A stretch of DNA of 42,322 nt from Acidobacteria bacterium RIFCSPLOWO2_02_FULL_61_28 (GTDB taxonomy: Bacteria; Acidobacteriota; Terriglobia; 2-12-FULL-54-10): positions 1 to 42,322 of the forward strand of contig MEKR01000127.1 in assembly GCA_001767035.1 (NCBI GenBank), given 5' to 3'. The position numbers and the translations under genes are program-made. The notes under the pieces were generated by a model that was given only the letters and a program-made list of their open reading frames with translations, searched no databases and was not told the origin of the DNA. Each line of letters begins with the position of its first letter. The first letter of the stretch is position 1. Positions 1-42,322 of this stretch are shown here, piece after piece.

Positions 1-1246
1 AAGCGTTGTTCTGCGAGTCCGACATCATCTGGTAGTGGTTCGGGCGCGGGACGGGATACGCCTCGAATCTCTCCCATTTGCGGGTCGCAAGATCCAGGCG
101 GAATATAGCCCACTCCCCGTTGTTCATTACCCACACCTTGCCATCCACTTTGTGGTGCTGCGGAGCTACGAAGAGCAGTTCCGGATGGTCTCCGTCGAAC
201 TCCGGGGAAAGAGGGTAGGTCTGGAATGTCTCGGTTTTCCGGTCAAATTTCTGAATGGCATTTTGGAACCCATTGCCGAGCCACACATTCTCATCCTCGT
301 CAAATTCCACATCCAGGACTCCCATGTTGCGGTTGGGTTTATTCACCGGGATCGGCCACTCCTTGGTCTCACCGGTCTTCGGATTCAGTCTTCCCAAAAT
401 CTGCTCGCCGAAGCTGGAATACCATACCAATCCTTGCGAATCCACGATGACATCATGCGGCTGTCTCGTCTTGGCGGGCAGGTCGTACTCCGTGTAGATG
501 ACCCTCGTGGCCTTGCCGGTGGGACGGGGGAGCGTCTTGAAGGAATACTCCCAAGGGGAAGCCTTGCTCAGATTAATCGAGCTGATAAATTCAGCCTGCC
601 GGCGACGGTTGTCCTGTTGCCGCTGGCGCCCCTCCGGGGTCGGGGCTCCGGTGCCGATCCGCCGTTGCGGGTCCGGCTGGACCATTAGCGGAAATGAACT
701 CGGCGAGTAACGTCCCATCCGCTCCAGGGTAACCATCAAGGCATTGGCATCGTAGCGCGTCCTCAGAAGCCGCTCCAGTGTGTGGCAGTGGTTACAGCCG
801 CGGATGGCGTTTTTTTGCTGTTCTGTTCCGGGAATGCTCATGAGCAATTCGGAATTGGTGAGCTGCGACGCCATTTCGTCCACGCTCGCTTTGCGGAGCT
901 TGAGGTCGGCTGTGGCTGCCTTCTGCGAGACAACGTCCACTGGCTTGGAGCCGTCCAGTTCGTAGCCCACCGCCCGGATGCGCAGGGCATACTGCCCCGG
1001 TTCCAATCTGTTTGCAGGGAACCGATAGCGACCTTGCTGGTCGGTCACGACGCTTACGGAGATGGTAGAACCCGCTCTCTTGGCGCTGACTATCACCCCC
1101 TCCATGGGACCGTCCGCTTGTGAACTCACCTGGCCAGTCAACGCCGCCGAGGTCCCGTTCTGGGCCTGGACCGAGCTCAGTCCCTGGATCAATAGGATTA
1201 CTGCCAAGCTTGCTCCGAGCATCCACAAATAGCCTTTTTTCAACAT
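1..1246 (-). CDS. Secreted carboxypeptidase-regulatory-like domain + CxxCH (cytochrome c-like) + streptogramin lyase (Vgb)-like beta-propeller protein; C-terminus off left edge
   Basis: Not in the ORF track because it has no stop in the window. Manual reverse-complement translation: MLKKGYLWMLGASLAVILLIQGLSSVQAQNGTSAALTGQVSSQADGPMEGVIVSAKRAGSTISVSVVTDQQGRYRF...IRGCNHCHTLERLL...QPHDVIVDSQGLVWYSSFGEQILGRLNPKTGETKEWPIP. Signal peptide, Ig-like CarboxypepD_reg fold, CNHCH motif, Vgb-like repeats. Confidence 0.8.
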   Translation of the reverse strand, partial: MLKKGYLWMLGASLAVILLIQGLSSVQAQNGTSAALTGQVSSQADGPMEGVIVSAKRAGSTISVSVVTDQQGRYRFPANRLEPGQYALRIRAVGYELDGSKPVDVVSQKAATADLKLRKASVDEMASQLTNSELLMSIPGTEQQKNAIRGCNHCHTLERLLRTRYDANALMVTLERMGRYSPSSFPLMVQPDPQRRIGTGAPTPEGRQRQQDNRRRQAEFISSINLSKASPWEYSFKTLPRPTGKATRVIYTEYDLPAKTRQPHDVIVDSQGLVWYSSFGEQILGRLNPKTGETKEWPIPVNKPNRNMGVLDVEFDEDENVWLGNGFQNAIQKFDRKTETFQTYPLSPEFDGDHPELLFVAPQHHKVDGKVWVMNNGEWAIFRLDLATRKWERFEAYPVPRPNHYQMMSDSQNNA

Positions 1247-1414
1247 GAGTGCCTCCTTCAAATTCAACGAACGGTTCGTGTTCCTCGCTTCGACTCCCCA
1301 GCCCATTCTATCATGTCGTTTCCCGATCTTTACGGCCCAGTGAACGGGCATCACCCTCCCTCGAACAAGTCGCGAAGAGGGTTCTGCCCGTTTGTCGCTT
1401 CAGCTCGGCTCTCA

Positions 1415-3109
1415 CTACGGCAGTATTTCAATGTAGCCGATATGGTTCGCAGTATCCCCGGCCCACCAAATGCGGTTCGGATTCGTGGGATCGGTCTCAA
1501 TCCTTCTGGCATCCGATTCGATGATCGGCAGGGAGTACTCCGTCCACGTGTTCGTCTTGGGATCGTAGCGGGCAATCTTGTCCGCCGTCTGCTCGCTCAC
1601 CCAAATCCAATTGCGCTTCGTGTCTGCAACCACGGAGTAGGGGGAACTGCTCTTGGTGGGGGGATCCAAGACAGTCATCTTGGTCGTCTTGTAATCAATC
1701 TTCACAAGCTGCCCGGTTTCATGGAGGCCCACCCAGATGTTGCCTTCCTGATCCGCTCCCATCCTTCGGGGAACCGAGCCCGGCTTGGGCAACTGATCTT
1801 CGCCGGGCACCTTGAACTCCTCAATCTTGCCCGTGGTCGGGTCGAGCCGGCCGATGAGGTTGGCGTCCCGTTCGGCGAACCAGACCTTGCCGTCACCGGA
1901 GACTGCCACCCCGTATGACCCGGCGTTTTTCTTGGTCTTTTCATAGGAAGGAAGGGTATAGGAGGTGAACTCCTTGGATGCGATATTCAACCCCAGGATG
2001 CGGTTGCCGTTGGACGACCAGACGGTTTTCCCGTCCGGGTGGACATACATTGTATTTCCGCCGACGTTGCCCGGCAGGTTCCTGGGCGCCGAATAGATTG
2101 TGAATTTCTCGCTCTTGGTGTCGAACTGGAACCAGCGGCGGTTGCGAGCGCCGTCGGCCGCCCAAATCGAGTCGCCGTGTCCAACGGCCGGGGAACCCAC
2201 CCAAGTATAGCTCTCTCCGGCGGGAGGCTCGACTTGCGTAAAAGTATAGGTTTTCGGATCAAACTTGCCAAAGCAGCAACCTTGCCGATAATTCGTCCAG
2301 GCAACTCCTCGGGGATCAATCACGAGGTCGTGAGGCTCGGTGTCATGGATCGGAATCTCAAAGTCCATGGCGACATACTTGGCGGCGTCGCCCTTCAGCA
2401 ACGTTCGGGACAAGCGGCCATTGAGATCGAACTTGGCGTTGGCAGTCCCAGGCTCGCCGGAATAGTTCTTCGCCAGATAATCCACCACGATCTTCGCTTC
2501 CTCCGCGGTCCATTCGGTATATTTCTTGCCAGAAGTGTCCGCACGGAGACGCTCCCGCATATTCTCGACCTTTTCGGCCCACTTCTCCTTGGTCCAGCGT
2601 TGCAGCACGATGCGGTAAAGCTCGTGGCATTGGACGCACTTGGTCCCCACAATCCGCTTGCCATCGCCTTCCGCCAGCGTCGGCTGTGGCGTCATGTACC
2701 ACACCTCGTTGCCGCCCACCGTTCCGGGCGAACCCGGCCAACCGTGCTCCACATACAGTCCCTGCTTATCCGTTAACGATACATCGGCGGAACCGGGCTT
2801 GCCCGCCGCTACGTCCACGGGCACAAACTTGCTCTGATATCCATTCCCAATTCCCTGCACGGTCCATTTCCCGGGAGGGAGATTGCTCGCCGTGTAGCGA
2901 CCCTGGTCCTGGCTGATGACCATGAAAGTGATGCGCTTGTCCGCATTGTACAACTTGACATAAGCCCCGGAAAGCGCCTCTCCGGATGCGCTTTTGACTA
3001 CTCCCTGAACGACGCCGGGAAAGTCGGCCGCTCGCACCGTTCCGGCCCAGAAGGCCGCGACCGCAACCAAACCCGCCAAAATTGCTTTCGGTCTCACTTG
3101 CCTGGACAT
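1415..3109 (-). CDS. Secreted carboxypeptidase-regulatory-like domain + CxxCH (cytochrome c-like) + streptogramin lyase (Vgb)-like beta-propeller protein
   Basis: C-terminal 564 aa of the 658-aa ORF. Preferred start MSRQVRPKAILAGLVAVAAFWAGTVRAAD with a GGAGGAGAG Shine-Dalgarno. Contains CVQCH and repeats such as GVAWTNYRQGCCFGKFDPKTYTF and KVWFAERDANLIGRLDPTTGKIEEF. Confidence 0.82.
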   Translation of the reverse strand: MSRQVRPKAILAGLVAVAAFWAGTVRAADFPGVVQGVVKSASGEALSGAYVKLYNADKRITFMVISQDQGRYTASNLPPGKWTVQGIGNGYQSKFVPVDVAAGKPGSADVSLTDKQGLYVEHGWPGSPGTVGGNEVWYMTPQPTLAEGDGKRIVGTKCVQCHELYRIVLQRWTKEKWAEKVENMRERLRADTSGKKYTEWTAEEAKIVVDYLAKNYSGEPGTANAKFDLNGRLSRTLLKGDAAKYVAMDFEIPIHDTEPHDLVIDPRGVAWTNYRQGCCFGKFDPKTYTFTQVEPPAGESYTWVGSPAVGHGDSIWAADGARNRRWFQFDTKSEKFTIYSAPRNLPGNVGGNTMYVHPDGKTVWSSNGNRILGLNIASKEFTSYTLPSYEKTKKNAGSYGVAVSGDGKVWFAERDANLIGRLDPTTGKIEEFKVPGEDQLPKPGSVPRRMGADQEGNIWVGLHETGQLVKIDYKTTKMTVLDPPTKSSSPYSVVADTKRNWIWVSEQTADKIARYDPKTNTWTEYSLPIIESDARRIETDPTNPNRIWWAGDTANHIGYIEILP

Positions 3110-3387
3110 GCTCTCTCCTCCTTTTTGCATTTCCTTCTTGAAAAGGCGCTCCCGCCCTCCCTGGACATCAATCTTCGCTCCTGGAACCGGCGTCTCCACT
3201 GGCTGGACAACTGCTTCCGTTATCGCCCCAGTTTGCTCCGAGTCCGCTGCGGCTGTCAAACGCGAAAACCGGCGCGGAACAATCTGCTGCGCATCGGAAT
3301 TCCGCCGCCGGATGTTCTCCTCGATCCTCGCTATCCCTACTCGTCTCCCCAAGCAGCCTGACAGACCGAAGCATCCATTCCCGTCCA

Positions 3388-4824
3388 TCAACGAACCGGC
3401 GGATTGATGGAAGGCCGACCCTCAATTTTTTGCCTGAGTTCCGCAAATGGCACCACTTCCCTGCCATGCGCCGGGAAAATGTGCGCGATGTCCAGCTTCA
3501 ACCGCTGGATGTTCTCCCATAGGTTCATCGTGTAGGGGGTCGAATAGCCATCGGGAGGGTCGTTGGGACGAGGCACATAGAACATGTTGAAGATGTCGGT
3601 GACGATCAAGAGTTTTTCTTTCGGCAGGTACGACATCAGTAGATTGGAGGCGTGCAGGTTCCCCCGGATCCAGTGGATTTCCATGGTGCGATCGCCGTCC
3701 GTCAGAACTTCTTTGTCCCTTACGTACACAAATTTCCCCTCTTTCGGGGTCCGGGCGTACGCATCGGGATGCAAGGTCCAGGGGTTGCGAAGCAGCAAGT
3801 CGTAGTACTCCCGATTCATCGCGTGCGTGTAGATGGTTGCGCCTTCGGAAATCCAGTCCCGAAGCCCGCTCACGTGGTCGCTGTGGTGGTGGCTGTTGAT
3901 TTGGACGATCCGCTTGTTAGGGACCATCCGTTTGACTTGCGCGATGTTGGCGAGGGCGCGCGATTGATCCTGTCCGGTTTCGACAACCACCGCGAAATCC
4001 TTGAACTCCACCAGCGCGCTGTTCACGCCGCCGCCGCTCAAATACCAGATGCCCTCCGCGAACTTGAGCGGCTCTACCTTTTGCGCTGCCGGAGGTCTCG
4101 GCGCCGGCGCTTCCAGAGTGACTGCTGCATTCGGCTGCACGTTGCTCACATTGTATTCGAACGACGGGAGCCCGCCCTGCTTCTGCACGATCTTGGTCGG
4201 GAACTTCACGCCGGCGAAATCCCGGTAGTCGGAAAAGCTCGTCTCCACCAGTATGTCGCCGAGCACCTCATTGGGGAGCCAGGTTTCCACTTTCTCGAGC
4301 AAGTTCTCACTGTTGATGTAGCCTCTTACCTTGTACATTCCCTTGGCAGTGTATGAAACCATCGTCATCGGTCTGCGTCCGATGGTCAAAGACTGCGCGG
4401 TCGGATTTGCCGTCATCGCCGCTTTGACCCAGCCGTGCGGAATGGTCAGGGCGAGGGAGTTGGCGTTAAAGCCGGCCTCTTCGGACTGCACGCCACCCGC
4501 GCGCGATTCTGTGTAAAGCGGCTGTCCTCCCGCCCCGCGCGGCGGATCCAATAATTGCGTCCGTACCAACTCCTGCCGCGAAACGCCTTTTTCGAAGTCC
4601 ACCGAACGAGAATAGGTCGCCTTGAATTGCGGCCCTTCCTCAAAGGGCCGATAACTCTGACCCAAGGAAGCGGTGATCCCGGTGGCGGAATACTGCAGTG
4701 ACTTCAAGTTGGTGGCCCCGATGGTTTGCGCCACATTATTCACCACGTTTCCCGCGTTCTGCGCCCTGCTGGCGCTGCCGAATACTGCTAACACTGCAAG
4801 AACCGTGAGCCCTTTTTTCAACAT
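3388..4824 (-). CDS. Secreted MBL-fold metallo-hydrolase
   Basis: Preferred start MLKKGLTVLAVLAVFGSASRAQ (signal peptide) inside the 496-aa ORF. Metallo-beta-lactamase motif QINSHHHSDHVSGLRDWI, downstream H (GNLHASNLLMSYLP) and D (LLIVTDIFN). Confidence 0.82.
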   Translation of the reverse strand: MLKKGLTVLAVLAVFGSASRAQNAGNVVNNVAQTIGATNLKSLQYSATGITASLGQSYRPFEEGPQFKATYSRSVDFEKGVSRQELVRTQLLDPPRGAGGQPLYTESRAGGVQSEEAGFNANSLALTIPHGWVKAAMTANPTAQSLTIGRRPMTMVSYTAKGMYKVRGYINSENLLEKVETWLPNEVLGDILVETSFSDYRDFAGVKFPTKIVQKQGGLPSFEYNVSNVQPNAAVTLEAPAPRPPAAQKVEPLKFAEGIWYLSGGGVNSALVEFKDFAVVVETGQDQSRALANIAQVKRMVPNKRIVQINSHHHSDHVSGLRDWISEGATIYTHAMNREYYDLLLRNPWTLHPDAYARTPKEGKFVYVRDKEVLTDGDRTMEIHWIRGNLHASNLLMSYLPKEKLLIVTDIFNMFYVPRPNDPPDGYSTPYTMNLWENIQRLKLDIAHIFPAHGREVVPFAELRQKIEGRPSINPPVR

Positions 4825-4893
4825 CGTTACCTCCCTGACCACAAATCGAACCCCTGTCTTGAACAGCGATTGCCCCATCCGCTCCCGGGCAAC

Positions 4894-6186
4894 CTATGAG
4901 GACATTTCTTCCGGCCGCAAAGCCAGCGCCAGAACCGCCGCAACCAGGGAAAACAGCGAGATCTGGATTTGTCCTGCGGTCACCCACCCCGCCTGGTTGG
5001 CGAGCCATCCCATTAAATAGCCGGCCACGGCGCTCGACATGTAAAGGCTTGTCACGAACATGCCGGAGCCCCGGCTGGACATACTCGCCCGCACCGCCTT
5101 CACGTGATTGGCCGCCAGATTCACGTACAGAACGGCGCTTCCGATCACGCCATAAAGACAAGCCAAGACCGCCTTCGCCGCGACCGCTTCCGAGCCGTGG
5201 AAAAACAGGTATCCCAGCACTGCGGTGCACACAAAGGCGATCGGCAGCACGACACGCGGGGATACTCGATCGCCCAGCCAGCCGCCCGCGATGGAGGCCA
5301 AGGCTCCCAATCCGAAAAAGCTCATGACGAATCCGGCCGTTTCGGGCGAGTAACCGAGCCCTTCGCGGAGGTAGGTGGGGTACATGCCGAGAAAGCCGTA
5401 GAGCACCAAGCCGTACACTACGCTGAGCAGGGTCAGCAGAATCGAATTCCGGTTCAGTAGAGATGGCGCCCCGCCGCGGTCTTCCCGTGCCGTCGCGGAG
5501 CCCCGCGTCTCGGTGAACCACGATCGGACTGTCAGTAAGATCAGGCCGATCATCACGAAGCCGAAGCCCCCAAAGGCGATCATGGGGACCCTCCAGGTCC
5601 CATAAGTGGTCAGCAGTATGGGGGCCAAGAAGTAACCGGACCAGGTGCCTATGCCGAAGCAAAAATTGACCGAACCGACGGCGGCGCCCCGGTTCCGCGA
5701 AAAATAGCTGGCCGCCAGAGCAAACATGACCGTCGCCAGCATCGCCATGCCGATCCCGGTCACCGCCAGACAGAAAAGCATACTCCAGAATCCCGTCATG
5801 ACGGCGGTGAGCGCGGTTCCGGCGGAAAAAATGGCGATCCCGGTCAGCGCCACCGCCTTGCGGGGAAACCGCGCCAGCAGGTAGCCCGTCGGCAACCCTC
5901 CGATCCCCAGTCCGAGGGTAAAGATGGTTGAGAGGAGTCCGGTATTGGCGAGGGAAAAACCGAAGTCGCGCCGGATGTCGGGAGCGAGCACCGGAAACAG
6001 GTAGCGATCGGCCGCCATCAGCGCATATCCGAGCAGCAACACGCAGTACATAGAAATGGCGACACTGCGTGTGCCGGTTTGCTCCTGCACAGGGCCGGTT
6101 TGGTTAGCGGCTACTTGGTTTTGAATTGTTTTCCTCCGTTGCGCTGCAACGCGCCCCTGGACCCAACTGGAAACGAACGCCCACAA
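4894..6186 (-). CDS. Major facilitator superfamily transporter
   Basis: 430 aa, about 12 hydrophobic segments, MFS-like loops (YLLARFPRKAVALTG, GGWLGDRVSPRVVLP). Confidence 0.85.
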   Translation of the reverse strand: MWAFVSSWVQGRVAAQRRKTIQNQVAANQTGPVQEQTGTRSVAISMYCVLLLGYALMAADRYLFPVLAPDIRRDFGFSLANTGLLSTIFTLGLGIGGLPTGYLLARFPRKAVALTGIAIFSAGTALTAVMTGFWSMLFCLAVTGIGMAMLATVMFALAASYFSRNRGAAVGSVNFCFGIGTWSGYFLAPILLTTYGTWRVPMIAFGGFGFVMIGLILLTVRSWFTETRGSATAREDRGGAPSLLNRNSILLTLLSVVYGLVLYGFLGMYPTYLREGLGYSPETAGFVMSFFGLGALASIAGGWLGDRVSPRVVLPIAFVCTAVLGYLFFHGSEAVAAKAVLACLYGVIGSAVLYVNLAANHVKAVRASMSSRGSGMFVTSLYMSSAVAGYLMGWLANQAGWVTAGQIQISLFSLVAAVLALALRPEEMSS

Positions 6187-6424: not shown

Positions 6425-7687
6425 CTACCAAGCCGAACGGACCGGCTTGCCGACCAGCTTGGCCTGGACCGCACCCGGTTTGGGCCGGAACTTCTGAGCG
6501 ACTCCCTTGCAGACGTCGGAGGTGTAGAGATTGCCTTCCTCGTCCACCGTGATTCCGTGATTGCACCAGAGCGCCCCTTGCGCCTCACTGAGGAAGCCCC
6601 AGGATTGCAGGAACTTGCCGTTCCGGTCCCACTGAACCATCTTATTGGTCCCGGCATCGGCGCCCCACAGAGTTCGGTCAGTCCCCATGTAGAGCTGGTA
6701 GATGTGCGCGGGCGGATGACCAACCCACCACATGTCAACAAACTTGCCGTTTTCATCGAAGACCTGAATCCGGCGGTTGCTCCGGTCCGACACATAGAGT
6801 CGCCGTTCCACGGGGTCAATGGCAAGGCCATGCACGGTGTTGAAGTAGCCGGGACGCGTCTCATTGCCGTCAATCCCCTTCTGACCCCAGGCCGTCAGAT
6901 ACTTGCCGTCCTTGTCGAATTTCACGACGCGCGTGTTGGTGTAACCATCCGTCAAGAACATGGTGCCGTCGGGAAGCCAGGCGAGGAAGGTCGGCCTGCC
7001 GTAGTGCTTGTCATCGTTCCCCGGTTCGTTGGGGGTGCCGATGGTCAGAACGAGCTTCTTCCCGTCGTTGGTGAACTTGAAGATGGCGTGGCGCATATCG
7101 TCCACCACCCAAACGTGCTTTTCCCGGTCGTAGGGACTGATGAAAACGGCATGGGGCCGCTTGAAGGTCGAATCCCACTGGTTCCAGGCCTCGATCTGAT
7201 TGCCGTTGCGGTCCACCGCGAACAGGACGTTCTTCCAGCGCCAATCCACGCCTTCCTTCGTCAGGCCTGTGTCAGCAGCCGCATTGGGCGGGCTGGCCAC
7301 CGGGCCTTGCGAGTGGTTCCGCCACGGCACCGCGTTGACAGGGAAAGAAAGGCTCGGTCCGAACTGCGGGACCGGCGTAAGCGGCGGCTTTTTGATATCC
7401 GGCAATTCGCCGCGCTGAAGGATGAAGACCTTGTTCGCACTCTCGGCATAAATGCCCTGCATGGATCCCCAGGTCCATTTTCCTTCATTTCCCGGCAGTG
7501 GCTTCGGCCAACCCGGCACGATCAAGTATTGTCCATACTGTTCCTGAAAACCCTTTTGTCCGTTGTCTTCTGGAATCCCCGTGGCCTGGACAACCTGCCC
7601 CTGGACGGGCGCCGGCTTGCCGCCCAGAATGAAAGCGACCAGGAAACCAAGCGCGATCACAGTTATTAATACAACACGTCTCAGCAT
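6425..7687 (-). CDS. Secreted NHL/6-bladed beta-propeller protein
   Basis: 420 aa, N-terminal signal, repeats such as GTMFLTDGYTNTRVVKFDKDGKYLTAWG and RRLYVSDRSNRRIQVFDENGKFVDMW. Confidence 0.82.
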   Translation of the reverse strand: MLRRVVLITVIALGFLVAFILGGKPAPVQGQVVQATGIPEDNGQKGFQEQYGQYLIVPGWPKPLPGNEGKWTWGSMQGIYAESANKVFILQRGELPDIKKPPLTPVPQFGPSLSFPVNAVPWRNHSQGPVASPPNAAADTGLTKEGVDWRWKNVLFAVDRNGNQIEAWNQWDSTFKRPHAVFISPYDREKHVWVVDDMRHAIFKFTNDGKKLVLTIGTPNEPGNDDKHYGRPTFLAWLPDGTMFLTDGYTNTRVVKFDKDGKYLTAWGQKGIDGNETRPGYFNTVHGLAIDPVERRLYVSDRSNRRIQVFDENGKFVDMWWVGHPPAHIYQLYMGTDRTLWGADAGTNKMVQWDRNGKFLQSWGFLSEAQGALWCNHGITVDEEGNLYTSDVCKGVAQKFRPKPGAVQAKLVGKPVRSAW

Positions 7688-7826: not shown

Positions 7827-9170
7827 TTAATCTTTCCACGCCGCGCGGACGGGTTGGCCGATCAAGAATTCCGAAGGCGCCCCTCTCTTGGGCCGGAACA
7901 TCTGCGGACGGCCGCCCCACACCTCTGCCGTGTAGAGATTGCCATCCTGGTCAACGCTGAACTGATGGGTGCCCCACAGTCCTCCAGGCTCTGGCATCAT
8001 GGTGCCCCACGTAAACAGCAGCTTCCCGGTCAGATCGTATTTGTAGAACTTGAAGTTCCCGTGGCCGTCAGACGCCCAGACGTGCTGGTCCGCGGTCATG
8101 TAGATGTGATACGTCGCGGTGGGTCCGTCGCCCAAGTACCACTGCGCCAGAAACTTCCCGTTCTCGTCGAAGACCTGGATGCGGCGGTTGCCCCGGTCGT
8201 TGATGTAGACGCGGCGCTGGTTGTCGGTGACGATGCCGTGCGGGGTATTGAAGTAGTTCGGCCGCATCTCCTTGCCCTGCTCGCCTCTCTCGCCCCACGC
8301 CATCAGGAATTTGCCGTTCTTGTCGAACTTCACGACGCGGGTTTCCTCGTAGCCGTCGGCGACAAAGAACGTGCCGTCCGGCAGCCAAGCGATGTCCGTC
8401 TGACGACCGAAGGTCGCGTTGGACGGACCGCTCTTCTTGGTCAACGACGGCCGCCCGGTATTGCCGGTCATCTTTGCGTTCCTCTCGGTCGTCGTGTTCC
8501 TCGTGCCGATCGTCTGGAGCAGTTTCTTGCCGTCGTTGCTGAACACATGGATGACCTGGTGCCCGTCGTCAATGGCCCACACGCGCTTTTCCGGATCATA
8601 GGGGCTGATCAGAATCTTGTGAATGCGGCCCTGGGCCAGCACTTTCGGGTTGTCCGGCTTGAACAGCGAATCCCACTGGGTCCAATCTTCTATCAGATTT
8701 CCCTGGCCGTCGAACACCGTGATGATGTGTTCCCAGCGGTAGTCCTTCCCCTCTTCGCCCACAAACTGGTCGGTTGCTTCCCCCGGGCTAGAGTAGAGAC
8801 CCACGGACGCGTTCCGCACGTACATCCCGCGTCCAGGGACCGGCAGGCGCACCGTCCGTCCGTCCTCGGTTTCGACCTCGACGGACTTGGTCTTGAGGTT
8901 GGAGACGTCGGGCAGCTCGCCTCGCATCGCCACGAAGATGCGGTTCGGGTTCTGGGCGAACACGCCCTGGACCGCGCCCCACGTCCAGCCCTTGTGGTTT
9001 GGCAACTGCGACAGCGGCTTGGGCCAGTCTTTGACAACATCATAGTATCCAGTCACTAACTGGTCACTCTTGTTTGCATGTGGCCCCTGCCCCTGGCCAA
9101 TCACGAGTCTACCCGCGAGCAAGACCAGGAAAGCAGCCGCTGCCACTATCATCACACGTTGCTTATTCAT
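7827..9170 (-). CDS. Secreted NHL/6-bladed beta-propeller protein (paralogue of 6425..7687)
   Basis: Preferred start MNKQRVMIVAAAAFLVLLAGR with GGAGGAAGCTA ribosome-binding site. Repeats GTFFVADGYEETRVVKFDKNGKFLMAWG and RRVYINDRGNRRIQVFDENGKFLAQW. Confidence 0.82.
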   Translation of the reverse strand: MNKQRVMIVAAAAFLVLLAGRLVIGQGQGPHANKSDQLVTGYYDVVKDWPKPLSQLPNHKGWTWGAVQGVFAQNPNRIFVAMRGELPDVSNLKTKSVEVETEDGRTVRLPVPGRGMYVRNASVGLYSSPGEATDQFVGEEGKDYRWEHIITVFDGQGNLIEDWTQWDSLFKPDNPKVLAQGRIHKILISPYDPEKRVWAIDDGHQVIHVFSNDGKKLLQTIGTRNTTTERNAKMTGNTGRPSLTKKSGPSNATFGRQTDIAWLPDGTFFVADGYEETRVVKFDKNGKFLMAWGERGEQGKEMRPNYFNTPHGIVTDNQRRVYINDRGNRRIQVFDENGKFLAQWYLGDGPTATYHIYMTADQHVWASDGHGNFKFYKYDLTGKLLFTWGTMMPEPGGLWGTHQFSVDQDGNLYTAEVWGGRPQMFRPKRGAPSEFLIGQPVRAAWKD

Positions 9171-9247
9171 TAGCTTCCTCCGGAAAATGTAGTAACCAAA
9201 ATATGCCAACCTTTAACGAGCGTAAGTCTGATGTCTCTCGGGTCGCC

Positions 9248-10357: not shown

Positions 10358-10483
10358 AGCGCCTTTCCTTATTGGAGTATGACGAATCGGCCCCCTAGGA
10401 CGTTTCTCGATAGATGACAACCGCAGCTTCCGAACCGGGTCCAGCGTTCCAGACGGCTGGGGAGAAGCTCTTCGCCACCCGCC

Positions 10484-11551: not shown

Positions 11552-11635
11552 AGTACCTCTCCTCATGAAAGAACGATCTGCGCGACCAGGCGGGAATCGG
11601 CGGCCGAGGACGGCTGCCTCCCCTTCCGGCCCACC

Positions 11636-12691: not shown

Positions 12692-12777
12692 AACTATGGC
12701 TCTCCTCTTTATAGTGGATGGGCAACCCCCAGGCATGGAAAGCGGCCCGTTTCTCGATTGCTCAAAAACCTCTCGCC

Positions 12778-26542: not shown

Positions 26543-26806
26543 TGCGGCTGCCGATGGTCCCGATTCCCGTTCGCTGACTCCCGTTCCGCCAGGTGAAATG
26601 GCGATCCGGCGGGTGTCAACGATGCTCCTCGGTGGTTGCGGTCGCCAGAGCAAGTTGCGAACGAATCGGTGGCGGTTCAGGGCGCCGTCGGAGGCTCCGC
26701 GCGGCACTCTTTTCCTCTTCTTCATCTGAAACCGCAGGGAACTCACGCTCGGGATGACCCTGTATCTCCGGGTTCAGCCGCGAGTCGCGCGAAAGGATGT
26801 GTTCCG

Positions 26807-29734: not shown

Positions 29735-29759
29735 CTGGCGTTGCAATTTGGGAGGAGTC

Positions 29760-32378: not shown

Positions 32379-32463
32379 ATTGACTTCTTTGTTGGCTCTT
32401 GGGTTGTGTTAGCTGTACTTAGCTCTAACCTTTCCGCGCCATGGTGGAATCCGAGCCGGACGA

Positions 32464-33311: not shown

Positions 33312-33346
33312 CGCTTTGATTCTCTAAGTAATTGGAACTTGAATTC

Positions 33347-34150: not shown

Positions 34151-34155
34151 GCTCG

Positions 34156-34863
34156 ATGTTGAAAGTTTCCAATATTCATACCTATTACGGTGACAGCCAT
34201 GTGCTGCAAGGAATCAGCCTGGACGTTCCGAAAGGAACGGTCGTGGCCTTGCTCGGACGAAATGGCGTCGGGAAGACTACTCTCGTTCGGTCCATCGTTG
34301 GGTTTACCCCTCCTCGCCGGGGCCAAGTCCTCTTTAACGATGTGGAAATCACTCGCATGGCCCCTTATCAGATCGGGCGCATGAAGATCGGCTTGGTTCC
34401 GCAGGGCCGCCGCATTTTCCCCTCCCTCACGGTCAACGAAAATCTGGCGATCGCTCTCAGAAACTCCACGGAAAATCCTTGGGACCTTCAGAAGATTTTT
34501 GGGCTTTTCCCTGCTCTCAAAGAACGGGGCAAGAATAAGGGAAACGAATTGAGCGGCGGAGAGCAACAGATGCTGGCCATTGCCAGGGCGCTCGTCTCCA
34601 ACCCGGTCCTTCTCTTGATGGACGAACCCACAGAAGGCTTGGCTCCGGCCTTGGTCCGAGAGGTATCTCGGTTGATCCTAAGGCTGAAGGATGCGGGGAT
34701 GACCATTCTGTTGGTAGAACAGAATATTGCTCTGGCGGCGAAAGTGGCGGATGAGGCGCATGTGATGAGCAAGGGAACCATTGTCTACTCTTCCAGCCCG
34801 AGGGAACTCTGGGAAAACCAAGAAGTCAAAACCCGTTTTCTGGGAGTCCCGACGAATATCTAG
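34156..34863 (+). CDS. livF: ABC transporter ATP-binding protein (LivF family)
   Basis: Walker A GRNGVGKTT, signature LSGGEQQMLAIARAL, Walker B LLLMDEPTEGLAPALV, GLVPQGRRIFPSLTVNENL. Confidence 0.92.
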   Translation: MLKVSNIHTYYGDSHVLQGISLDVPKGTVVALLGRNGVGKTTLVRSIVGFTPPRRGQVLFNDVEITRMAPYQIGRMKIGLVPQGRRIFPSLTVNENLAIALRNSTENPWDLQKIFGLFPALKERGKNKGNELSGGEQQMLAIARALVSNPVLLLMDEPTEGLAPALVREVSRLILRLKDAGMTILLVEQNIALAAKVADEAHVMSKGTIVYSSSPRELWENQEVKTRFLGVPTNI

Positions 34864-34977: not shown

Positions 34978-35484
34978 CTATCTTCCGGCGCTCGGGGCGG
35001 CGCTCGGGGCGGCCGGGGGATCGGCGATGCGAGTCAATTGCAACGCCACCATCTTCCACCCTTGCTGGCGGGCCCAGACAAACGTATATTGAGCCAGAAA
35101 ATCGTTGGCGGGACTATTATTATTGACCACTTTGATGTGGATACGCCCCGTGGCGAGCGCGGTCGTGCCATAAAGGCGAACCTGAACGTTTTCGAGGTGG
35201 AAGGTCTCGTACCGGCGGCTGCCCGTTCGGATCGTGTTCACATACACAGACTTCGTATCTACTCTCCCCCCCGAATGAGCGAAGGTAAAATCATCCGCAA
35301 AAATGCGGTTCAGGGCATCGGCGTCTCCGCGGGATGAGGCGGCGGCGTACTCCTGAGTCAATCGAATCACTTCTTGCTCCGCATTCGAGCCATTCGGCAG
35401 ATTGGCTTGCTGACCGAGAGCGGAGCGGGGCACCAACGCCAAGCCGCAGGACAAGGCAATGACCAACAGAGATTTCGTGAACAT
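34978..35484 (-). CDS. Secreted NTF2/SnoaL-like (DUF4440-type) protein
   Basis: MFTKSLLVIALSCGLALVPRSALGQQ signal, then EQEVIRLTQEYAAASSRGDADALNRIFADDFTFAHSGGRVDTKSVYVNTI. Confidence 0.8.
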   Translation of the reverse strand: MFTKSLLVIALSCGLALVPRSALGQQANLPNGSNAEQEVIRLTQEYAAASSRGDADALNRIFADDFTFAHSGGRVDTKSVYVNTIRTGSRRYETFHLENVQVRLYGTTALATGRIHIKVVNNNSPANDFLAQYTFVWARQQGWKMVALQLTRIADPPAAPSAAPSAGR

Positions 35485-35533
35485 GAGAGTACCTCCTCGT
35501 GGAAAAAGTTGCCGGCGATAATTGAAATCCTCG

Positions 35534-37225
35534 CTATCGAGCCGCAGACGCACGCGGCTTTTTCGTACTGGTGACCCCTTCCAGCGACCACCAGAAGCTG
35601 CGGTCTTCGCAGCGGTAGTTCTCGGCCGTCTTGACGTCCCCGGAGCCATCGTAGACCGGGACCTGCGGGTAGGGACACAGGGGCAGGGTGCGGTCCACGA
35701 CACCGTTCGTCAAGTGAGACGCGATGATCTTCTCGGGCGCTATACCCTCCTCCACCCACCGATCAAGCGCCTTGACGAGGTTGTGCTGCGCGTCATCGCC
35801 GGGCAGGAGGTCCTGATTGGCGCCGCCGAAAACGTTGGGGCCGGGGCCGTTGCCGCAGTGATGCATCCCCGGAGCCACGAACAAACGAGCGAAGTCGCTC
35901 ACCCCTTTGGGGTTCTCCTCCGCTTTCTTTTTCGTCATCGCTTCGATGACTTCCGAGTAATATTCGACGGTTCTGATGGGCGTGATGGAATGATCCGCCC
36001 AGCCATGGTAGAGAAGCAGCTTTCCGCCGCGGGCCTTGAACGCGGAGAGGTCCGGATTGTCGGCATCCTGCGCCTTGGCAAACGGTTTCAGCGCCTCCAG
36101 ATGCTTATCGAAGTTGAACTGCGTGACCGGATCGAAGCTGGGGCCGAAGACGAAGTACCGCATGAAGACGTTCTGGAGCGCATTCGACGACGCTCCGACG
36201 GAGTTGGCCGTTCCGGTGCCGGCGATGTACTGCGAGTAGTCCTCCTCATGGCCGGGAGGGAATCCGGCATGAAGCTGCACTCCGGCGGAATTGACCGGGC
36301 CCTGGAGAATCTTCTGCAGCGCCTGGACCTGACCGGACGTCAAACAATCGGGGCCGTCTCCCGAGGCGCACTGGATCGTTTTCGGGTCAAACCGGCAACG
36401 GCCGGGATTCATGATCAGGCCGTCAATCACTCGCCCGCTCTCCCGGCAGGCGTTCATGGTGGCCTTTTCGATCACAGGGATTTTGCTGGGTGGAATCGGA
36501 GCCGGCGCCAGGGCCTGGGCATTCCAGGCGAATTGCATCATGAGCTTGGTCCGATCAATCACGGGGTTGCCCGAGATGGCAGCGTCAAAATCCTCGGGAT
36601 ACCGCTGGACTTCCGTCAGCGCCATTTTGCCGCCGTTCGAGCAGCCGACGAAATAGGAGCGTTTCTCCCGCTGGGAGTAATAACTCCGCAGAATCTCCTT
36701 CCCGAGGAGCGTAACCACATGGGTGCCGAGATAGGCGTAGTTGTTCTGTGCGTCGGGGTTGTTGAGCGCCCACGAGCCATCGCTCGAATCTTTCGGAGCC
36801 ACGTGGCCGGTGTCCGAGCCGGCGGCCGCGTAGCCCTCGGTGAGCGGCCGGATGAGCCGGGGAATGGTGCCGTTGTATCCCCCGCCTCCGGCGACCCAGT
36901 ACTTGCCGTTCCATTTCGTGGTCGGCATAGCGACTTCAAACAGAATCGTGGATTGCGGCAGATTGCGGATGCTCCCCAGAACCTTGCAGTATTCCGGCAC
37001 CGGGCCGTTGGCCGGGATCACGGTTGCGGATGTGATCGTCGTGTCCTTCAGCTTCAGGCCCGTCAAGCTCCCACAATCTCCGGCTGCCGCTGCGGCCGGG
37101 CCAAAGGCGTGGGATGCCAGCAGCCCCAGCGCGAACGTCGCCAGCGACGCGCCCAAGTTCGAGCGCGAGAGGACAAAATCGAACATGAAACCAGAGGTAC
37201 GTCGTAGTTTCTCGCAAGTTTTCAT
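35534..37225 (-). CDS. Secreted tannase/feruloyl esterase family protein
   Basis: Preferred start MKTCEKLRRTSGFMFDFVLSRSNLG. CS-D-HC architecture typical of the family: FVGCSNGGKMALTE, LLYHGWADHSI, FVAPGMHHCGNGPG. Confidence 0.88.
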   Translation of the reverse strand: MKTCEKLRRTSGFMFDFVLSRSNLGASLATFALGLLASHAFGPAAAAAGDCGSLTGLKLKDTTITSATVIPANGPVPEYCKVLGSIRNLPQSTILFEVAMPTTKWNGKYWVAGGGGYNGTIPRLIRPLTEGYAAAGSDTGHVAPKDSSDGSWALNNPDAQNNYAYLGTHVVTLLGKEILRSYYSQREKRSYFVGCSNGGKMALTEVQRYPEDFDAAISGNPVIDRTKLMMQFAWNAQALAPAPIPPSKIPVIEKATMNACRESGRVIDGLIMNPGRCRFDPKTIQCASGDGPDCLTSGQVQALQKILQGPVNSAGVQLHAGFPPGHEEDYSQYIAGTGTANSVGASSNALQNVFMRYFVFGPSFDPVTQFNFDKHLEALKPFAKAQDADNPDLSAFKARGGKLLLYHGWADHSITPIRTVEYYSEVIEAMTKKKAEENPKGVSDFARLFVAPGMHHCGNGPGPNVFGGANQDLLPGDDAQHNLVKALDRWVEEGIAPEKIIASHLTNGVVDRTLPLCPYPQVPVYDGSGDVKTAENYRCEDRSFWWSLEGVTSTKKPRASAAR

Positions 37226-37259
37226 CGTGTTTTCTCCTTTCGGTCGGCAGGCTCCGGAT

Positions 37260-38486
37260 TTAGGATGGGGGTACCAACTGCTTTGCCATCCAATCAGCCA
37301 GGATTGGCGGGCGCAGAGGACTTGGCCGAGCGCGGCCGACATCATGGCCCATTTCCGCCACCATGCTTCTCTTCGAGTTGACTGCGGCCTGGTAAAGCCG
37401 GAACGCCCCCTGCGGGTCCATAATCCGATCGTCCTTGCCATAACCAATCAGCATAGGGCATTCGATCTGCTGCGCCCGGCCTTCCAGCGTGAATTCCCGA
37501 ATCTTCTTTCGGGCGTCGGCCAAATCCTTGGCTCCAATCAGCCAACGGAGGCGCTCCTGAATGGGAGGATAATACTCGAAAATATCCTCCAGCAAACTGT
37601 ACGCCCCGCTTGACATGGAACAGGCTCTAATCCTCTTGTCGCCCGAGGCACATCGCGGAGCGGTGTAGCCGCCCATGCTTCCTCCGGTAATTCCGATCCG
37701 GTTCGGATCTACGTCGGGCCGGCTAACCAGGTAATCAATCACCACTTTGGCGACGCGCTCGGAGTCGGGAGGGGCATACACGCGCTTCAGTCGAAGAGGG
37801 ATTCCTTGCCCAGGACCATCCAGGAACAGATATGCCATGCCGCGCGAGGTGTAGGCTCCCCCTCCGCCCCCGACCAGGCTCGAATCGGCTCCACCGAACG
37901 CATAGACGGTCGGGAAGCGCTGGCCGGGATTTCCTCTTGGTTTCGAGAAATAGGCGGGCAGCGTGGTTCCTTCAAAGGGTATCTCTAAGCGTTCAAACGG
38001 CGGAGGCACTAACTGCCAGGCTCTCTTGTACATCTCGATCAGTTTATTGAAAGTGGGAAGCATCGGGGGATCGCCTTCCGATTGATAGATCACCGCCCGC
38101 TGGTAGAACCGCGCAGCCCGCAGATAGTATTCGTTCGCCGTGACCTTGTGCCCCTCTTTTTCGAACCCCTCCGCCAACCGCTCGTTCTTTTCCGCTATCC
38201 GTTTCCACTCCGCATACCATGACACCGGGTTAAAGGGACTCATCCGCTCGGCCAATTCCACCAGATCCAAGTCGCTGCTATAAGGAGAAACGGTCATCCG
38301 GATTTCCAACTGCCCGCCTCCGGGTAGGTTCTTACTCCCAAAAAGCTCTTCTTCCGCCCTACCTCCGACCTGAGCGGGGGAAGCCAATGCAGTAGAAAGA
38401 CGCCCCTTGGGCAACAGGGACAGACCGGAAGAAAGCAGGCCCCATTTCATCGCGCTTCTTCGGCTGATCTTCCTTATGGTACCCAT
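37260..38486 (-). CDS. Alpha/beta hydrolase, FrsA/2,6-dihydroxypseudooxynicotine hydrolase-like, with Tat-like leader
   Basis: RKISRRSAMKWGLLSSGLSLL leader. RIGITGGSMGGYTAPRCASGDKRIRACSMSSGAYS (GxSxG), CPMLIGYGKDDRIMDPQGAFRLY. SD AAAGGAGG. Confidence 0.8.
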   Translation of the reverse strand: MGTIRKISRRSAMKWGLLSSGLSLLPKGRLSTALASPAQVGGRAEEELFGSKNLPGGGQLEIRMTVSPYSSDLDLVELAERMSPFNPVSWYAEWKRIAEKNERLAEGFEKEGHKVTANEYYLRAARFYQRAVIYQSEGDPPMLPTFNKLIEMYKRAWQLVPPPFERLEIPFEGTTLPAYFSKPRGNPGQRFPTVYAFGGADSSLVGGGGGAYTSRGMAYLFLDGPGQGIPLRLKRVYAPPDSERVAKVVIDYLVSRPDVDPNRIGITGGSMGGYTAPRCASGDKRIRACSMSSGAYSLLEDIFEYYPPIQERLRWLIGAKDLADARKKIREFTLEGRAQQIECPMLIGYGKDDRIMDPQGAFRLYQAAVNSKRSMVAEMGHDVGRARPSPLRPPILADWMAKQLVPPS

Positions 38487-38618: not shown

Positions 38619-39704
38619 CTACCGATCCGGAATTTCTAACACGTCGTGAGACCCGGTGGAGAGGTTCACGTCGGGCGCTCCCCCAGAGTTTATCTTACCG
38701 CTTACCAGGTGAAGGCGGTTCCCGATAAACGCGCCGGCAACGCCGTGCCGGGTAATCGGCATCGAGGGGAGGATACTCCAGGTGTTGGTTGCGGGATCGT
38801 ATGCTTCCAGGGCTTTGAACGCGGCGTTGAACTGCGGAGTCTGCAGCTCGCCGCCGGCCACGTAGATCTTGCCCCGGTAAGTGGCCCAGCCCCCGCCGCT
38901 CCGCGGGGTGGGCATCCGCGCTCGAACCGCGCCCCATTGGTCCGTCGCCGGATCATACTCCTCGACAATATCGGTGTTGCTGGAAACCGGAATGAAGCTC
39001 GATCCCATCCGGCCGCCGATGACATAAATCTTGCCGTTCACGACACCCGCGAACGCGTGGTTCCGGGTGGTCGGCATCGGCTTGCGGGTTTCCCATTTGT
39101 TGGTCGCCGGATCGTACACCTCGTTCGTACCCAGCGAGCGAGACGGCCGGGTCGCCGCCATGGAGGTCAGGTTCGAGCCGGGTTCCGTTGTAGCGCCGCC
39201 GATCACGTAAATCTTGCCGCCCACTTCGCCCGCGACGGCGGAGCAGCGTTTGCCCGGCATCGGCGCGAGCGCCCTCCAGGAATCGGCGGCGGGGTCGTAT
39301 TCCCACGCATTGTCCACCGGCTCCCATCCCCCCGCTCCCTCGCCGGATAGCGGCCTCATACAGCCGCCGACCACGTAAATCTTGCCGCGGTACTCGGCCA
39401 TCGCCTGGTGGTGTACGGGGACCGGGATCGGCTTCTTCTTAGTCCACCGGTCGGCGGCCTCATCGTACTCATACACCATCGCCGTAGCGGGCTTCCCGGC
39501 GGAGCCGAATCCGCCGATGACATACATCTTCCCGTTCGCGGTGATGCCGTAGAGTTCCTCCTCCGGCTCCGGGAACGGCGCCATCTTCACCCAGCGCAAT
39601 GGCCCCCCTTGCGCCTGGGCTTGCGCTTGCGCGCGAATGCTAAACATCAGAACGATCGAAGCGGCGGCAACGACCGCGAACATTCGTTGAATTTTCGACG
39701 ACAT
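38619..39704 (-). CDS. Secreted Kelch-repeat beta-propeller protein (fifth paralogue)
   Basis: Preferred start MSSKIQRMFAVVAAASIVLMFSIRAQAQ. Kelch motifs GKMYVIGGFG, GKIYVIGGATTE, YDPATNKWETRKPMPTTRNHAF. Closely similar to the ORFs at 12778 and 11636. Confidence 0.87.
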   Translation of the reverse strand: MSSKIQRMFAVVAAASIVLMFSIRAQAQAQAQGGPLRWVKMAPFPEPEEELYGITANGKMYVIGGFGSAGKPATAMVYEYDEAADRWTKKKPIPVPVHHQAMAEYRGKIYVVGGCMRPLSGEGAGGWEPVDNAWEYDPAADSWRALAPMPGKRCSAVAGEVGGKIYVIGGATTEPGSNLTSMAATRPSRSLGTNEVYDPATNKWETRKPMPTTRNHAFAGVVNGKIYVIGGRMGSSFIPVSSNTDIVEEYDPATDQWGAVRARMPTPRSGGGWATYRGKIYVAGGELQTPQFNAAFKALEAYDPATNTWSILPSMPITRHGVAGAFIGNRLHLVSGKINSGGAPDVNLSTGSHDVLEIPDR

Positions 39705-39779
39705 AGCGCCTCTCCTCCGTGAGTGGACGATCAGCTCGATAGGCGTGTACACGATTCCCTCTTCGGCCGGTCGAAGCGC

Positions 39780-39959: not shown

Positions 39960-41018
39960 TCATGATTTCAGACGCGGGAACAATTCCAGCGCGTTCTCGC
40001 GCTCGATGGCGCGAAGCTCACTCGCGCTGAAGTCTCCATTATCCCTCAGCCCCTTGGCAACCGGCGCCGAACCGGTACCGAACGGATAATCCGTCCCGAA
40101 CAAGATGTGTGAGATCGGCACGAGCTTCTTAAAGGACGGCAACGTGTATGGGTTAAACGCCTGCGCGGTATCGTAGTAAAACTTCTGCAACTCGTAAATC
40201 AGCCCTTTCGGCAGCTTCGACGCCGCTCCGCCCAAGCGGCTGGTAATGTACGGCGCCGTGCCTCCCCCGTGGGACCAGAGGAAGCGAATATCCGGGCAGC
40301 GTACGACGGTGCTACTGATCAAGACGCTCGTAATCGCGCGGGTCGTGTCGTTCACCAGTTCGCCGCCGAGACCGGTCCCTTGCGGAAGAAGGTTCTGGCA
40401 GCACGGAGCGCGGTAGGGATGGAAATAGACGACCGCCTTGCGCCGGTTGAGTTCGTCCATTACCGGCTCGAAGGCGGGATCGCCGGGGTACTTGCCACCA
40501 ATGCTCGTCATCATGCAAATGCCGTCTGCCTTGAGGGTGTCCAGACTGTATCCGATCTCGCGGAGGGCCCCGTCCACGTCGGGCAGCGGCAGGATTGCAA
40601 ACTGGCCGAAGCGTCCCGGATAGTCCGCCATCACCCGGGCTCCGAGTTCGTTGCACTCCCGCGCCATCTTTCGGGCCGCGGCGTCATCGCCGAACCAGAC
40701 GCTCGGCTCGCTGATAGACAAGATGGAGGTGGCCACGCCGCCCTTGTCCATGTCCTCGACGGATTTCTGAGGCGTCCACTCGATCAGAGGGGTCTGGCCG
40801 GTCTTCCTGGCGATCATCTCGGCCACCTGTCCGGGTGCCGAGAAGTGGTGGTGGGTGTCAATCCGGAACGGCCGGGCGGGAGCGGCAGCTGGCGTCTGAG
40901 CCGATGAAAGAACTCTTGGAAGGGCGGCAGCGGCCCCGAGCGTGGCCAGCCTAATCAGGAATTCCCGCCTCGAGTGCGACAGTCTCGCTTCCCCTTCAAC
41001 CATATTCATGATTTTCAT
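39960..41018 (-). CDS. Amidohydrolase-family (PF04909-like) protein with Tat-like signal
   Basis: SRREFLIRLATLGAAAALPRVLSSAQ leader. RIDTHHHFSAPGQ, FLWSHGGGTAPYITSR, LFGTDYPFGTGSAP. Confidence 0.88.
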   Translation of the reverse strand: MKIMNMVEGEARLSHSRREFLIRLATLGAAAALPRVLSSAQTPAAAPARPFRIDTHHHFSAPGQVAEMIARKTGQTPLIEWTPQKSVEDMDKGGVATSILSISEPSVWFGDDAAARKMARECNELGARVMADYPGRFGQFAILPLPDVDGALREIGYSLDTLKADGICMMTSIGGKYPGDPAFEPVMDELNRRKAVVYFHPYRAPCCQNLLPQGTGLGGELVNDTTRAITSVLISSTVVRCPDIRFLWSHGGGTAPYITSRLGGAASKLPKGLIYELQKFYYDTAQAFNPYTLPSFKKLVPISHILFGTDYPFGTGSAPVAKGLRDNGDFSASELRAIERENALELFPRLKS

Positions 41019-41095: not shown

Positions 41096-42181
41096 TCATG
41101 TTTTCAGCCGCGGAAACAATCCCAGTGCGTTTTCGCGCTCAATGGCGCGAAGATCGCTCGCGCTGAATCCATAGTCGCTCAGCCCCTTGGCTACCACCTG
41201 GGCGGGCGCAGCACCGAACGGGAAATCGGTCCCGAACAGAACGTGCGATACCGGCACGGTCTTCATCAAAGTCGGCAATGCGTAGGGGTTGAAAAAATTC
41301 GCGGTGTCGTAATAGAACTTCTGCACTTCGTAGAGCAGTCCTCTCGGCAGCCGCGGCGCCATATCCGGCCGCTGCGCGACTCCCAGGAAGCGGTTCATGA
41401 GGTACGGGAACGTGCCACCGCCGTGGGACCAGAGGAAGCGGATGTCCGGGCACCGCGCTGCCGTGCCGCTGAACAGCACACTCGCAATCGTGCGGGTCGT
41501 ATCGGTCCCCAGTTCGATCACAGCCGGCCCCAACTCCGGCTGCAGGTTCTTGCAGCACTCGGCCCGGAAGGGATGGCAATACACGACCGCCTTGCGCCGG
41601 TTGAGTTCGTCCATCATACGCGCGAACGCAGGGTCGCCGAGGTACTTGCCTTCGTAGCTCGTCATCACGGTGACGCCGTCCGCCTTGAGGGTGTCCAGAG
41701 CGTATTCGATCTCGCGGAGGGCTCCTTCAACATCCGGGAGCGGCAGGATTGCGAACTGGCCGAAGCGTCCCGGATGATCCGCCATGAACCGGGCTCCGAG
41801 TTCGTTGCATTCCCGCGCCAGACGGCGCGCTGCATTGTCATTGCCGAACCAGACGCTCGGTTCGCTGATCGAAAGGATGGCGGTGGCGACGCCGCCTTTG
41901 TCCATGTCCTCGAGGGATTTTTGAACGGTCCACTCCATCAAGGGGCGCTGGCCGGTCTTGCGGCCGGCGATCTCGTCAACAAATCCGGGCGCCGAGAAGT
42001 GGTGGTGGGTGTCAATCCGGAACGGCTGGGCGGAAGCGGCGGCTCGTGCCTGTGCCGCCATGAGGGCTTTCGGGAGGGCGGCGGCAGCGCCGAGCGCGGC
42101 GAGTCCCACCAAGAATTCGCGCCTCGGGACGCCTCCAGAGTGCAATTGGTTCATCTTGGGTTCGTTCGAGTGGTTGTACAT
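41096..42181 (-). CDS. Amidohydrolase-family (PF04909-like) protein with Tat-like signal; tandem paralogue of 39960..41018
   Basis: PRREFLVGLAALGAAAALPKALMAAQ leader. RIDTHHHFSAPGF, FLWSHGGGTFPYLMNR, LFGTDFPFGAAPAQ. SD GGAGGGGGA. Confidence 0.88.
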   Translation of the reverse strand: MYNHSNEPKMNQLHSGGVPRREFLVGLAALGAAAALPKALMAAQARAAASAQPFRIDTHHHFSAPGFVDEIAGRKTGQRPLMEWTVQKSLEDMDKGGVATAILSISEPSVWFGNDNAARRLARECNELGARFMADHPGRFGQFAILPLPDVEGALREIEYALDTLKADGVTVMTSYEGKYLGDPAFARMMDELNRRKAVVYCHPFRAECCKNLQPELGPAVIELGTDTTRTIASVLFSGTAARCPDIRFLWSHGGGTFPYLMNRFLGVAQRPDMAPRLPRGLLYEVQKFYYDTANFFNPYALPTLMKTVPVSHVLFGTDFPFGAAPAQVVAKGLSDYGFSASDLRAIERENALGLFPRLKT

Positions 42182-42214
42182 GCGGAAAGTCCCCCTCCAG
42201 GTGAGACGAACAAA

Positions 42215-42247
42215 CGGTGGGGCAAGCTTTCGAGAATTGCCCCACCG
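42215..42247 (-). terminator. Strong hairpin between TonB receptor C-terminus and amidohydrolase (terminator/attenuator-like, possibly bidirectional)
   Basis: Perfect 11-bp stem CGGTGGGGCAA/TTGCCCCACCG, 11-nt loop. Followed by TTTGTTCG on the minus strand and TCTTTTGAGTTTT on the plus strand. Confidence 0.6.
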
Positions 42248-42281
42248 TCTTTTGAGTTTTCTTCCGGTCCAACTGAGCCGA

Positions 42282-42322
42282 CTAAAAAGTCAATTTCATC
42301 CCGAGCTGAAGCTGCCGGTTGT
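42282..42322 (-). CDS. C-terminal end of a second Oar-like TonB-dependent receptor (rest off right edge)
   Basis: Not in the ORF track. Reverse complement of the last bases reads NRQLQLGMKLTF-stop, matching NRQLQFGLKLTF at the C-terminus of the receptor at 14166..17420. Confidence 0.7.
   Translation of the reverse strand, partial: NRQLQLGMKLTF

Follow-up and report, generated by a model that had tools for sequence, protein, structure and literature searches.

Contig MEKR01000127.1 of Acidobacteria bacterium RIFCSPLOWO2_02_FULL_61_28 carries TonB-dependent receptors, secreted propellers, exported enzymes and a complete LivHMKGF importer, which raises the question of whether it encodes one catabolic locus, and for which substrate. 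The window analysed here is the whole of this contig (C127; 42,322 nucleotides), part of a 3.86 Mb draft genome of the Acidobacteriota in 199 contigs. A preliminary description had proposed a single locus, acting on plant phenolics or aromatic esters. Gene families were assigned to 32 open reading frames with Pfam and NCBIfam, and almost all of the families named in that description were recovered. The gene combination is not due to chance, and what is conserved is a set of separable blocks rather than one 42-kb unit. We lean towards reading the central part of the window as an uncharacterised operon for organic-acid catabolism, lying beside recurrent outer-envelope blocks. Of the earlier proposal, a catabolic central operon with predicted periplasmic processing and a Liv importer stands, but the unity of the whole 42 kb does not.

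The central block (17.8-34.9 kb, plus strand) consists of a Crp-type regulator followed by the operon (about 18.9-34.9 kb), in this order:

17785..18624, plus: Crp/FNR-type regulator (family scan)
18901..19584, plus: molybdenum hydroxylase (Mo-hydroxylase) FeS subunit, twin-arginine (Tat) signal, both 2Fe-2S Cys sets
19556..21709, plus: Mo-hydroxylase molybdopterin subunit, GEPP motif with the expected catalytic Glu
21709..22695, plus: Mo-hydroxylase FAD subunit
23030..24286, plus: M24-fold metalloenzyme, operon core
24289..25275, plus: D-2-hydroxyacid dehydrogenase (HADH), operon core
25274..26542, plus: DRE-TIM (HMGL-like/LeuA-like) enzyme
26636..27829, plus: zinc alcohol dehydrogenase (ADH), operon core
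27907..28761, plus: LivH permease
28718..29734, plus: LivM permease
29748..30926, plus: twin-arginine PF04909 protein
31140..32378, plus: LivK binding protein
32406..33311, plus: S33-type alpha/beta hydrolase
33332..34150, plus: LivG ATPase
34156..34863, plus: LivF ATPase, last gene of the operon

The importer, the two dehydrogenases and the DRE-TIM enzyme had been recognized previously, and the Pfam and NCBIfam scans recovered all of them. The importer is of the Liv/HAAT type, with a binding protein, two permeases and two ATPases encoded within one operon. The M24 protein, the S33 hydrolase and the regulator had not been named, nor had three products of the flanks: an MFS transporter, a metallo-beta-lactamase-fold protein and a DUF4440 protein.

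M24 is the most conserved gene of the operon. A search anchored on it retrieved 15 further acidobacterial genomes with an M24 protein 80-88% identical to that of the window, and the surroundings of these genes were read. Both dehydrogenase genes adjoin the M24 gene in all 15 genomes, and 11 of them encode all of LivHMKGF (54-80% identical), arranged as in the window. In two carriers, the Liv importer is replaced by an MFS transporter 62-63% identical to that encoded in the left flank of the window (4894-6186). Such MFS homologues (62-67%) also follow the ADH or HMGL gene of the operon in other Acidobacteria, the spot at which Liv is found in the window. The DRE-TIM gene was found in eight carriers, a Mo-hydroxylase near the operon in seven and an NHL propeller in the surroundings of six. 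In one genome (G423), the operon is divided between two contigs. PF04909 (2/15), tannase (1/15) and kelch (1/15) genes are rarely found near it. The gene-neighbourhood comparison suggested earlier as a check thus bears out the central block but not its association with the flanks.

The operon is not restricted to Acidobacteria. A genome-wide search with the DRE-TIM protein, whose nearest relatives are encoded in Acidobacteriota draft genomes (Bryobacterales/Terriglobia), retrieved 80 loci from Acidobacteriota, Pseudomonadota, Chloroflexota, Actinomycetota, Rokubacteria, Desulfobacterota and others. Homologues of 55-83% identity are present in several phyla, and in many of the 80 loci, genes for M24 and a D-2-hydroxyacid dehydrogenase lie no more than a few kb away. 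M24 (68-88%) and DRE-TIM (57-79%) homologues share loci in Acidobacteriota, Pseudomonadota, Chloroflexota and Desulfobacterota, and a Syntrophaceae locus (L087) encodes M24 and the same Liv set (58-71%). No close DRE-TIM homologue was found in the same-family genomes G001-G006, so the operon was either gained here or lost there. In same-class relatives with a 52% identical DRE-TIM homologue, no other operon gene was found nearby. Different enzymes seem able to take the hydroxyacid step: the DRE-TIM gene is followed by a GlcD-like FAD oxidase gene in L087 and has an Ldh_2 gene close by in L119. The other neighbours across phyla (fumarylacetoacetate (FAA) hydrolase, MR/MLE, MmgE/PrpD and TRAP) are catabolic, and together with the GlcD-like oxidase and Ldh_2 they are typical of general hydroxy-acid and keto-acid catabolism. 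In the open-access literature, we found no description of the operon or of Oar/tannase/amidohydrolase sets in Acidobacteria. As far as that literature shows, the operon is undescribed as such, while its component families are all known. It offers a testable unit of four to nine genes, with conserved order and exchangeable importers, for a carbon source of mostly uncultured soil, subsurface and marine bacteria.

Some loci differ in their neighbours. A second type of M24 protein, about 31% identical to that of the window, is encoded beside the same DRE-TIM gene in L058, L069, L070, L074, L078 and L119, where it is paired with a PPDK_N/PEP-utilizer phosphotransferase-like protein. A FAA-hydrolase family gene is found directly upstream of the DRE-TIM gene in L071 and near it in L075, L089, L091, L098, L100, L103 and L104. 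L075 belongs to a cultured bacterium, Rhodoplanes elegans DSM 11907; no M24 gene was detected in the stretch around its DRE-TIM gene. In L139 and L141, genes for a PHP_C-domain protein and a threonine-dehydratase-like PALP protein come after livF.

What sets the DRE-TIM enzyme apart is its active site. It resembles LeuA and homocitrate synthase in fold, TLRDGEQ motif and HxH metal site, and its nearest solved structures are 6ktq, 3rmj and 6e1j. The AlphaFold model (pLDDT 89.7) has the expected fold, with homocitrate synthase and methylthioalkylmalate synthase (MAMS) as top structural matches. The metal site is kept (R50, D51, H232 and H234; R-D plus HxH) and is conserved across the subfamily. 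In contrast to these synthases, alignment with solved homologues placed I174, I340 and I327 at the positions of E227, Y399 and H388 of MAMS, so that the Claisen Glu-Tyr-His set is absent. All 104 homologues compared (48% identity or more) have Ile in place of the Glu, while the His is replaced by Ile, Val or Pro and the Tyr by Thr, Leu or Ile; none retains the E, Y or H of the catalytic set, these positions being hydrophobic or Thr/Pro throughout. The window enzyme also lacks the regulatory domain and is encoded in a catabolic-looking operon. In the tree, the subfamily stands apart from other LeuA/NifV-like proteins on a long branch with 100/100 support; the placement of L018 beside this clade is uncertain. 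The protein of that locus (G010:C8, L018/L048) is itself long-branched, with Tyr at the Glu position, and is possibly another catalytic variant.

In MAMS, activity was lost in Y399S and was undetectable in the E227A/D and H388A/Q/D/E variants (PMC11532901). Since the residues for acetyl-CoA condensation are missing, the DRE-TIM enzyme would carry out a lyase- or aldolase-type reaction, and we infer a metal-dependent lyase or aldolase rather than an acetyl-CoA synthase. The LeuA/homocitrate synthase mechanism was rejected because the Glu-Tyr-His set is replaced. It is quite improbable that the enzyme is still a Claisen synthase acting through other residues, within a biosynthetic or anaplerotic operon. 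Its overall fold, its nearest sequences (homocitrate and isopropylmalate synthases), a conserved Gln and the conserved metal site would fit such a role, but all three catalytic residues are replaced throughout the subfamily, an alanine change of Glu or His inactivates a homologue (PMC11532901) and the operon neighbours are catabolic. Whether the gene represents a new non-Claisen subgroup of DRE-TIM metallolyases, present in several phyla and acting as the C-C lyase in a catabolic route not yet described, alongside M24, the 2-hydroxyacid and alcohol dehydrogenases and exchangeable Liv/MFS/TRAP importers, is in our judgement evenly balanced. This large LeuA-like group lacks the residues of the textbook mechanism, and the automatic names 2-isopropylmalate synthase and homocitrate synthase may be wrong for it.

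The M24 protein has all five metal ligands (D270, D282, H346, E379 and E394), and its best match among solved proteins is DddP, an M24-fold dimethylsulfoniopropionate (DMSP) lyase. In DddP, Asp297 is a metal ligand, and Tyr366 and Asp377 are the proposed catalytic residues (PMC4108388). The corresponding positions in the window protein are N, L and L, invariant in 22 orthologue matches. A role as DMSP lyase was rejected, as the extra ligand and both proposed catalytic residues of DddP are absent in 22 of 22 matches; the protein shares the M24 metal ligands but scores 121 bits, far under the NCBIfam cut-off of 600 bits for DddP. Its structure prediction was poor (pLDDT 59) and was not used. The Mo-hydroxylase had been described as Tat-exported, and it consists of three subunits, of which the FeS subunit carries the Tat motif SRRKFLRG. 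It resembles PaoABC in having three subunits, a Tat signal solely on the FeS subunit and two 2Fe-2S Cys sets. Unlike in PaoABC, its FAD subunit lacks most cysteines of the insert loop: the loop of solved relatives (5y6q_B and 1rm6_B) is present, but the whole protein contains only C116 and C121. The FeS and molybdopterin subunits also score far under the PaoA and PaoC cut-offs, and assignment to PaoABC was rejected on both grounds.

From the observed gene content, gene order and its conservation, family placement and intact or missing catalytic residues, we infer a pathway, including the compartment, direction and order of its steps and its lyase chemistry. The Tat-exported Mo-hydroxylase and the PF04909 enzyme would alter a substrate in the periplasm, and LivK/LivHMGF, or the MFS carrier in relatives, would import a small carboxylated product. 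Three enzymes of the cytoplasm (M24, HADH and the zinc ADH) would then turn the import into a 2-oxo acid, to be split by the DRE-TIM enzyme in a metal-dependent lyase- or aldolase-type reaction. Several points weigh against this pathway. The DRE-TIM gene was not seen in the stretches read of 7/15 carriers, whose contigs are often short, and it may not be obligatory in the operon. Mo-hydroxylase relatives near the operon are just 24-36% identical, which indicates association of the class, not orthology. No enzyme of the operon has a characterised close relative, and the direction of the DRE-TIM reaction would follow from missing residues.

The flanking blocks lie on the minus strand. The left one (1-17.8 kb) has an Oar gene as its first gene, and the right one (35-42.3 kb) enters the window from contig C191. 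Left-block families were assigned with Pfam, and CxxCH (heme c) by motif:

2..1354, minus: CarboxypepD_reg + CxxCH + Vgb-type propeller; 3' end cut at the window edge
1415..3391, minus: CarboxypepD_reg + CxxCH + Vgb-type propeller
3388..4878, minus: metallo-beta-lactamase-fold protein, HHHSDH
4894..6186, minus: MFS transporter
6425..7687, minus: NHL propeller
7827..9209, minus: NHL propeller
9248..10420, minus: kelch propeller
10484..11566, minus: kelch propeller
11636..12736, minus: kelch propeller, 71% identical to two other window kelch proteins
12778..13842, minus: kelch propeller
14166..17807, minus: Oar-type TonB-dependent transporter (PF13620 + PF25183)
34978..35703, minus: DUF4440/SnoaL-like secreted protein
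35534..37447, minus: tannase/feruloyl-esterase/MHETase family protein
37260..38486, minus: FrsA-like hydrolase, twin-arginine N-terminus; its 3' end runs into the tannase ORF, whose 5' end is overlong
38619..39752, minus: kelch propeller, the fifth
39960..41018, minus: Tat-type PF04909 amidohydrolase
41096..42181, minus: Tat-type PF04909 amidohydrolase
42285..42322, minus: 3' end of the second Oar gene, continuing on contig C191

A foreign or misbinned contig was ruled out: the tetranucleotide profile fits the rest of the bin (r 0.90-0.93 with other contigs), and the window end shares its terminal 76 bp exactly with C191. Two Oar receptors, one partial, had been counted. One is complete, with an N-terminal CarboxypepD_reg domain (PF13620) and a PF25183 barrel, the separate plug model being unmatched; the other is represented by only its last ~38 bp, its body lying on C191. 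The nine propellers reported earlier were all found (two Vgb-like, two NHL and five kelch), but the two Vgb-like proteins are fusions of CarboxypepD_reg, a CxxCH motif and a propeller. CxxCH also occurs in several of their homologues, and this architecture suggests a periplasmic or outer-membrane redox protein. The kelch proteins score above the cut-off of PF24996 (NanM-type epimerase) and of several generic kelch models. Earlier assignments of the remaining enzymes held: three PF04909 proteins have twin-arginine motifs and intact HxH/H/H/D ligands, the tannase-family protein (PF07519) has the CS-D-HC catalytic set as GCSNGG/D/HHC, and the FrsA-like hydrolase is matched just above its cut-off.

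Both flanking blocks have counterparts elsewhere. Contig C187 of the same genome (L154) encodes a 47% identical paralogue of the Vgb protein at 1415-3391, also with CxxCH, as part of an Oar-kelch-kelch-Vgb block. Homologues of the metallo-beta-lactamase-fold protein (49-52%) are encoded next to kelch genes in two other acidobacterial genomes, and Oar/metallo-beta-lactamase/kelch clusters are found in G343:C11 (L150 and L151) and G086:C40 (L152), on contigs other than those of the operon and in other acidobacterial families as well. PF04909 is expanded in this genome, with 26 proteins above the cut-off, compared with 0-10 in genomes of the same family. Eight of the 26 genes lie within 1 kb of an Oar gene on the same strand; a rough genome-wide binomial on the family hits, which assumes independent placement on one sequence and is approximate, gave p of about 1e-9 for the same strand and 3e-7 for any strand. 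The two right-hand PF04909 genes of the window come after the Oar gene that continues on C191. Contigs C25, C55, C96, C168 and C191 each have an Oar gene followed by one or two same-strand PF04909 amidohydrolase genes, resembling small receptor-enzyme cassettes. Like SusCD-type and other TonB-receptor-plus-enzyme loci, these sets place a TonB-dependent transporter beside secreted enzymes and are repeated in the genome; here, in contrast, the receptor is Oar-type, no SusD was seen, and Tat amidohydrolases and propellers stand in place of glycoside hydrolases. Oar was rejected as a substrate indicator, being a generic trait of the lineage (51 merged hit regions in this genome and 38-55 hits in each of six same-family genomes).

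Several other readings of the window were considered. It is somewhat unlikely, though to be taken seriously, that three independent blocks with different substrates (Oar-kelch-NHL-MFS-metallo-beta-lactamase-Vgb, the operon and Oar-amidohydrolase-tannase) are merely neighbours. The Oar-kelch-kelch-Vgb block on C187, the clusters of G343 and G086 away from the operon's contigs, the five contigs with Oar-amidohydrolase sets and the occurrence of the operon by itself in many genomes would all be expected of such a mosaic. Yet in other genomes the operon has the left-block MFS transporter in place of Liv, several relatives carry kelch or NHL genes in the vicinity of the operon (in L063, L067 and L068, kelch is immediately upstream of M24/HADH), and 71% identical kelch paralogues are shared by the left and right blocks. 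Under the organic-acid reading that we prefer, the flanks probably supply or scavenge substrates, with a partial tie to the operon.

That the whole window is one plant phenolic or tannin locus is unlikely, and an aromatic substrate in general is doubtful. In such a scheme, the tannase and the FrsA-like hydrolase would free aromatic acids outside, PF04909 would decarboxylate and Liv or MFS would import. The nearest solved relatives of LivK are 4zpj and then the Rhodopseudomonas palustris proteins 4ey3/4evs/4f06/4evq, which we take to be binders of benzoate derivatives; LivK is similar in sequence to the aromatic-acid ABC importers of R. palustris, but the neighbouring catabolic genes differ. 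The Liv-adjacent PF04909 protein (29748-30926) is nearest to ACMSD and 5-carboxyvanillate decarboxylase (LigW-type), and the MFS transporter has a weak aromatic-acid symporter match. G471 (L064/L158-L159) even encodes on one strand AmH, M24-HADH-HMGL-ADH-MFS, a PF04909-like gene and a tannase. Against this, the Pfam and NCBIfam scans identified no ring-cleavage dioxygenase or other ring-cleavage gene in the window, the operon core occurs without the flanking blocks in other phyla, including marine and subsurface lineages without tannase, the neighbours across phyla belong to general hydroxy-acid and keto-acid catabolism, and the low counts of tannase, kelch and amidohydrolase genes near the operon are not those of a joint locus. 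The nearest solved relatives of the tannase-family protein include feruloyl esterases and MHETase; as the family covers both, its name gives no substrate. The plant-phenolic or aromatic-ester substrate proposed earlier therefore finds little support. It is very unlikely that Oar is an export port for the adjacent Tat- or Sec-exported enzymes and not a nutrient importer, by analogy with the one well-studied Oar, that of Myxococcus xanthus, which secretes a protein, the protease PopC (PMC6434023). The same-strand proximity of Oar and PF04909 genes would suit export, but it fits a receptor with its enzyme equally well, and about 50 Oar hit regions are more than plausible cargoes could account for.

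Lying between the divergent left and central blocks, the Crp/FNR-type regulator (17785-18624) is a candidate regulator of both.

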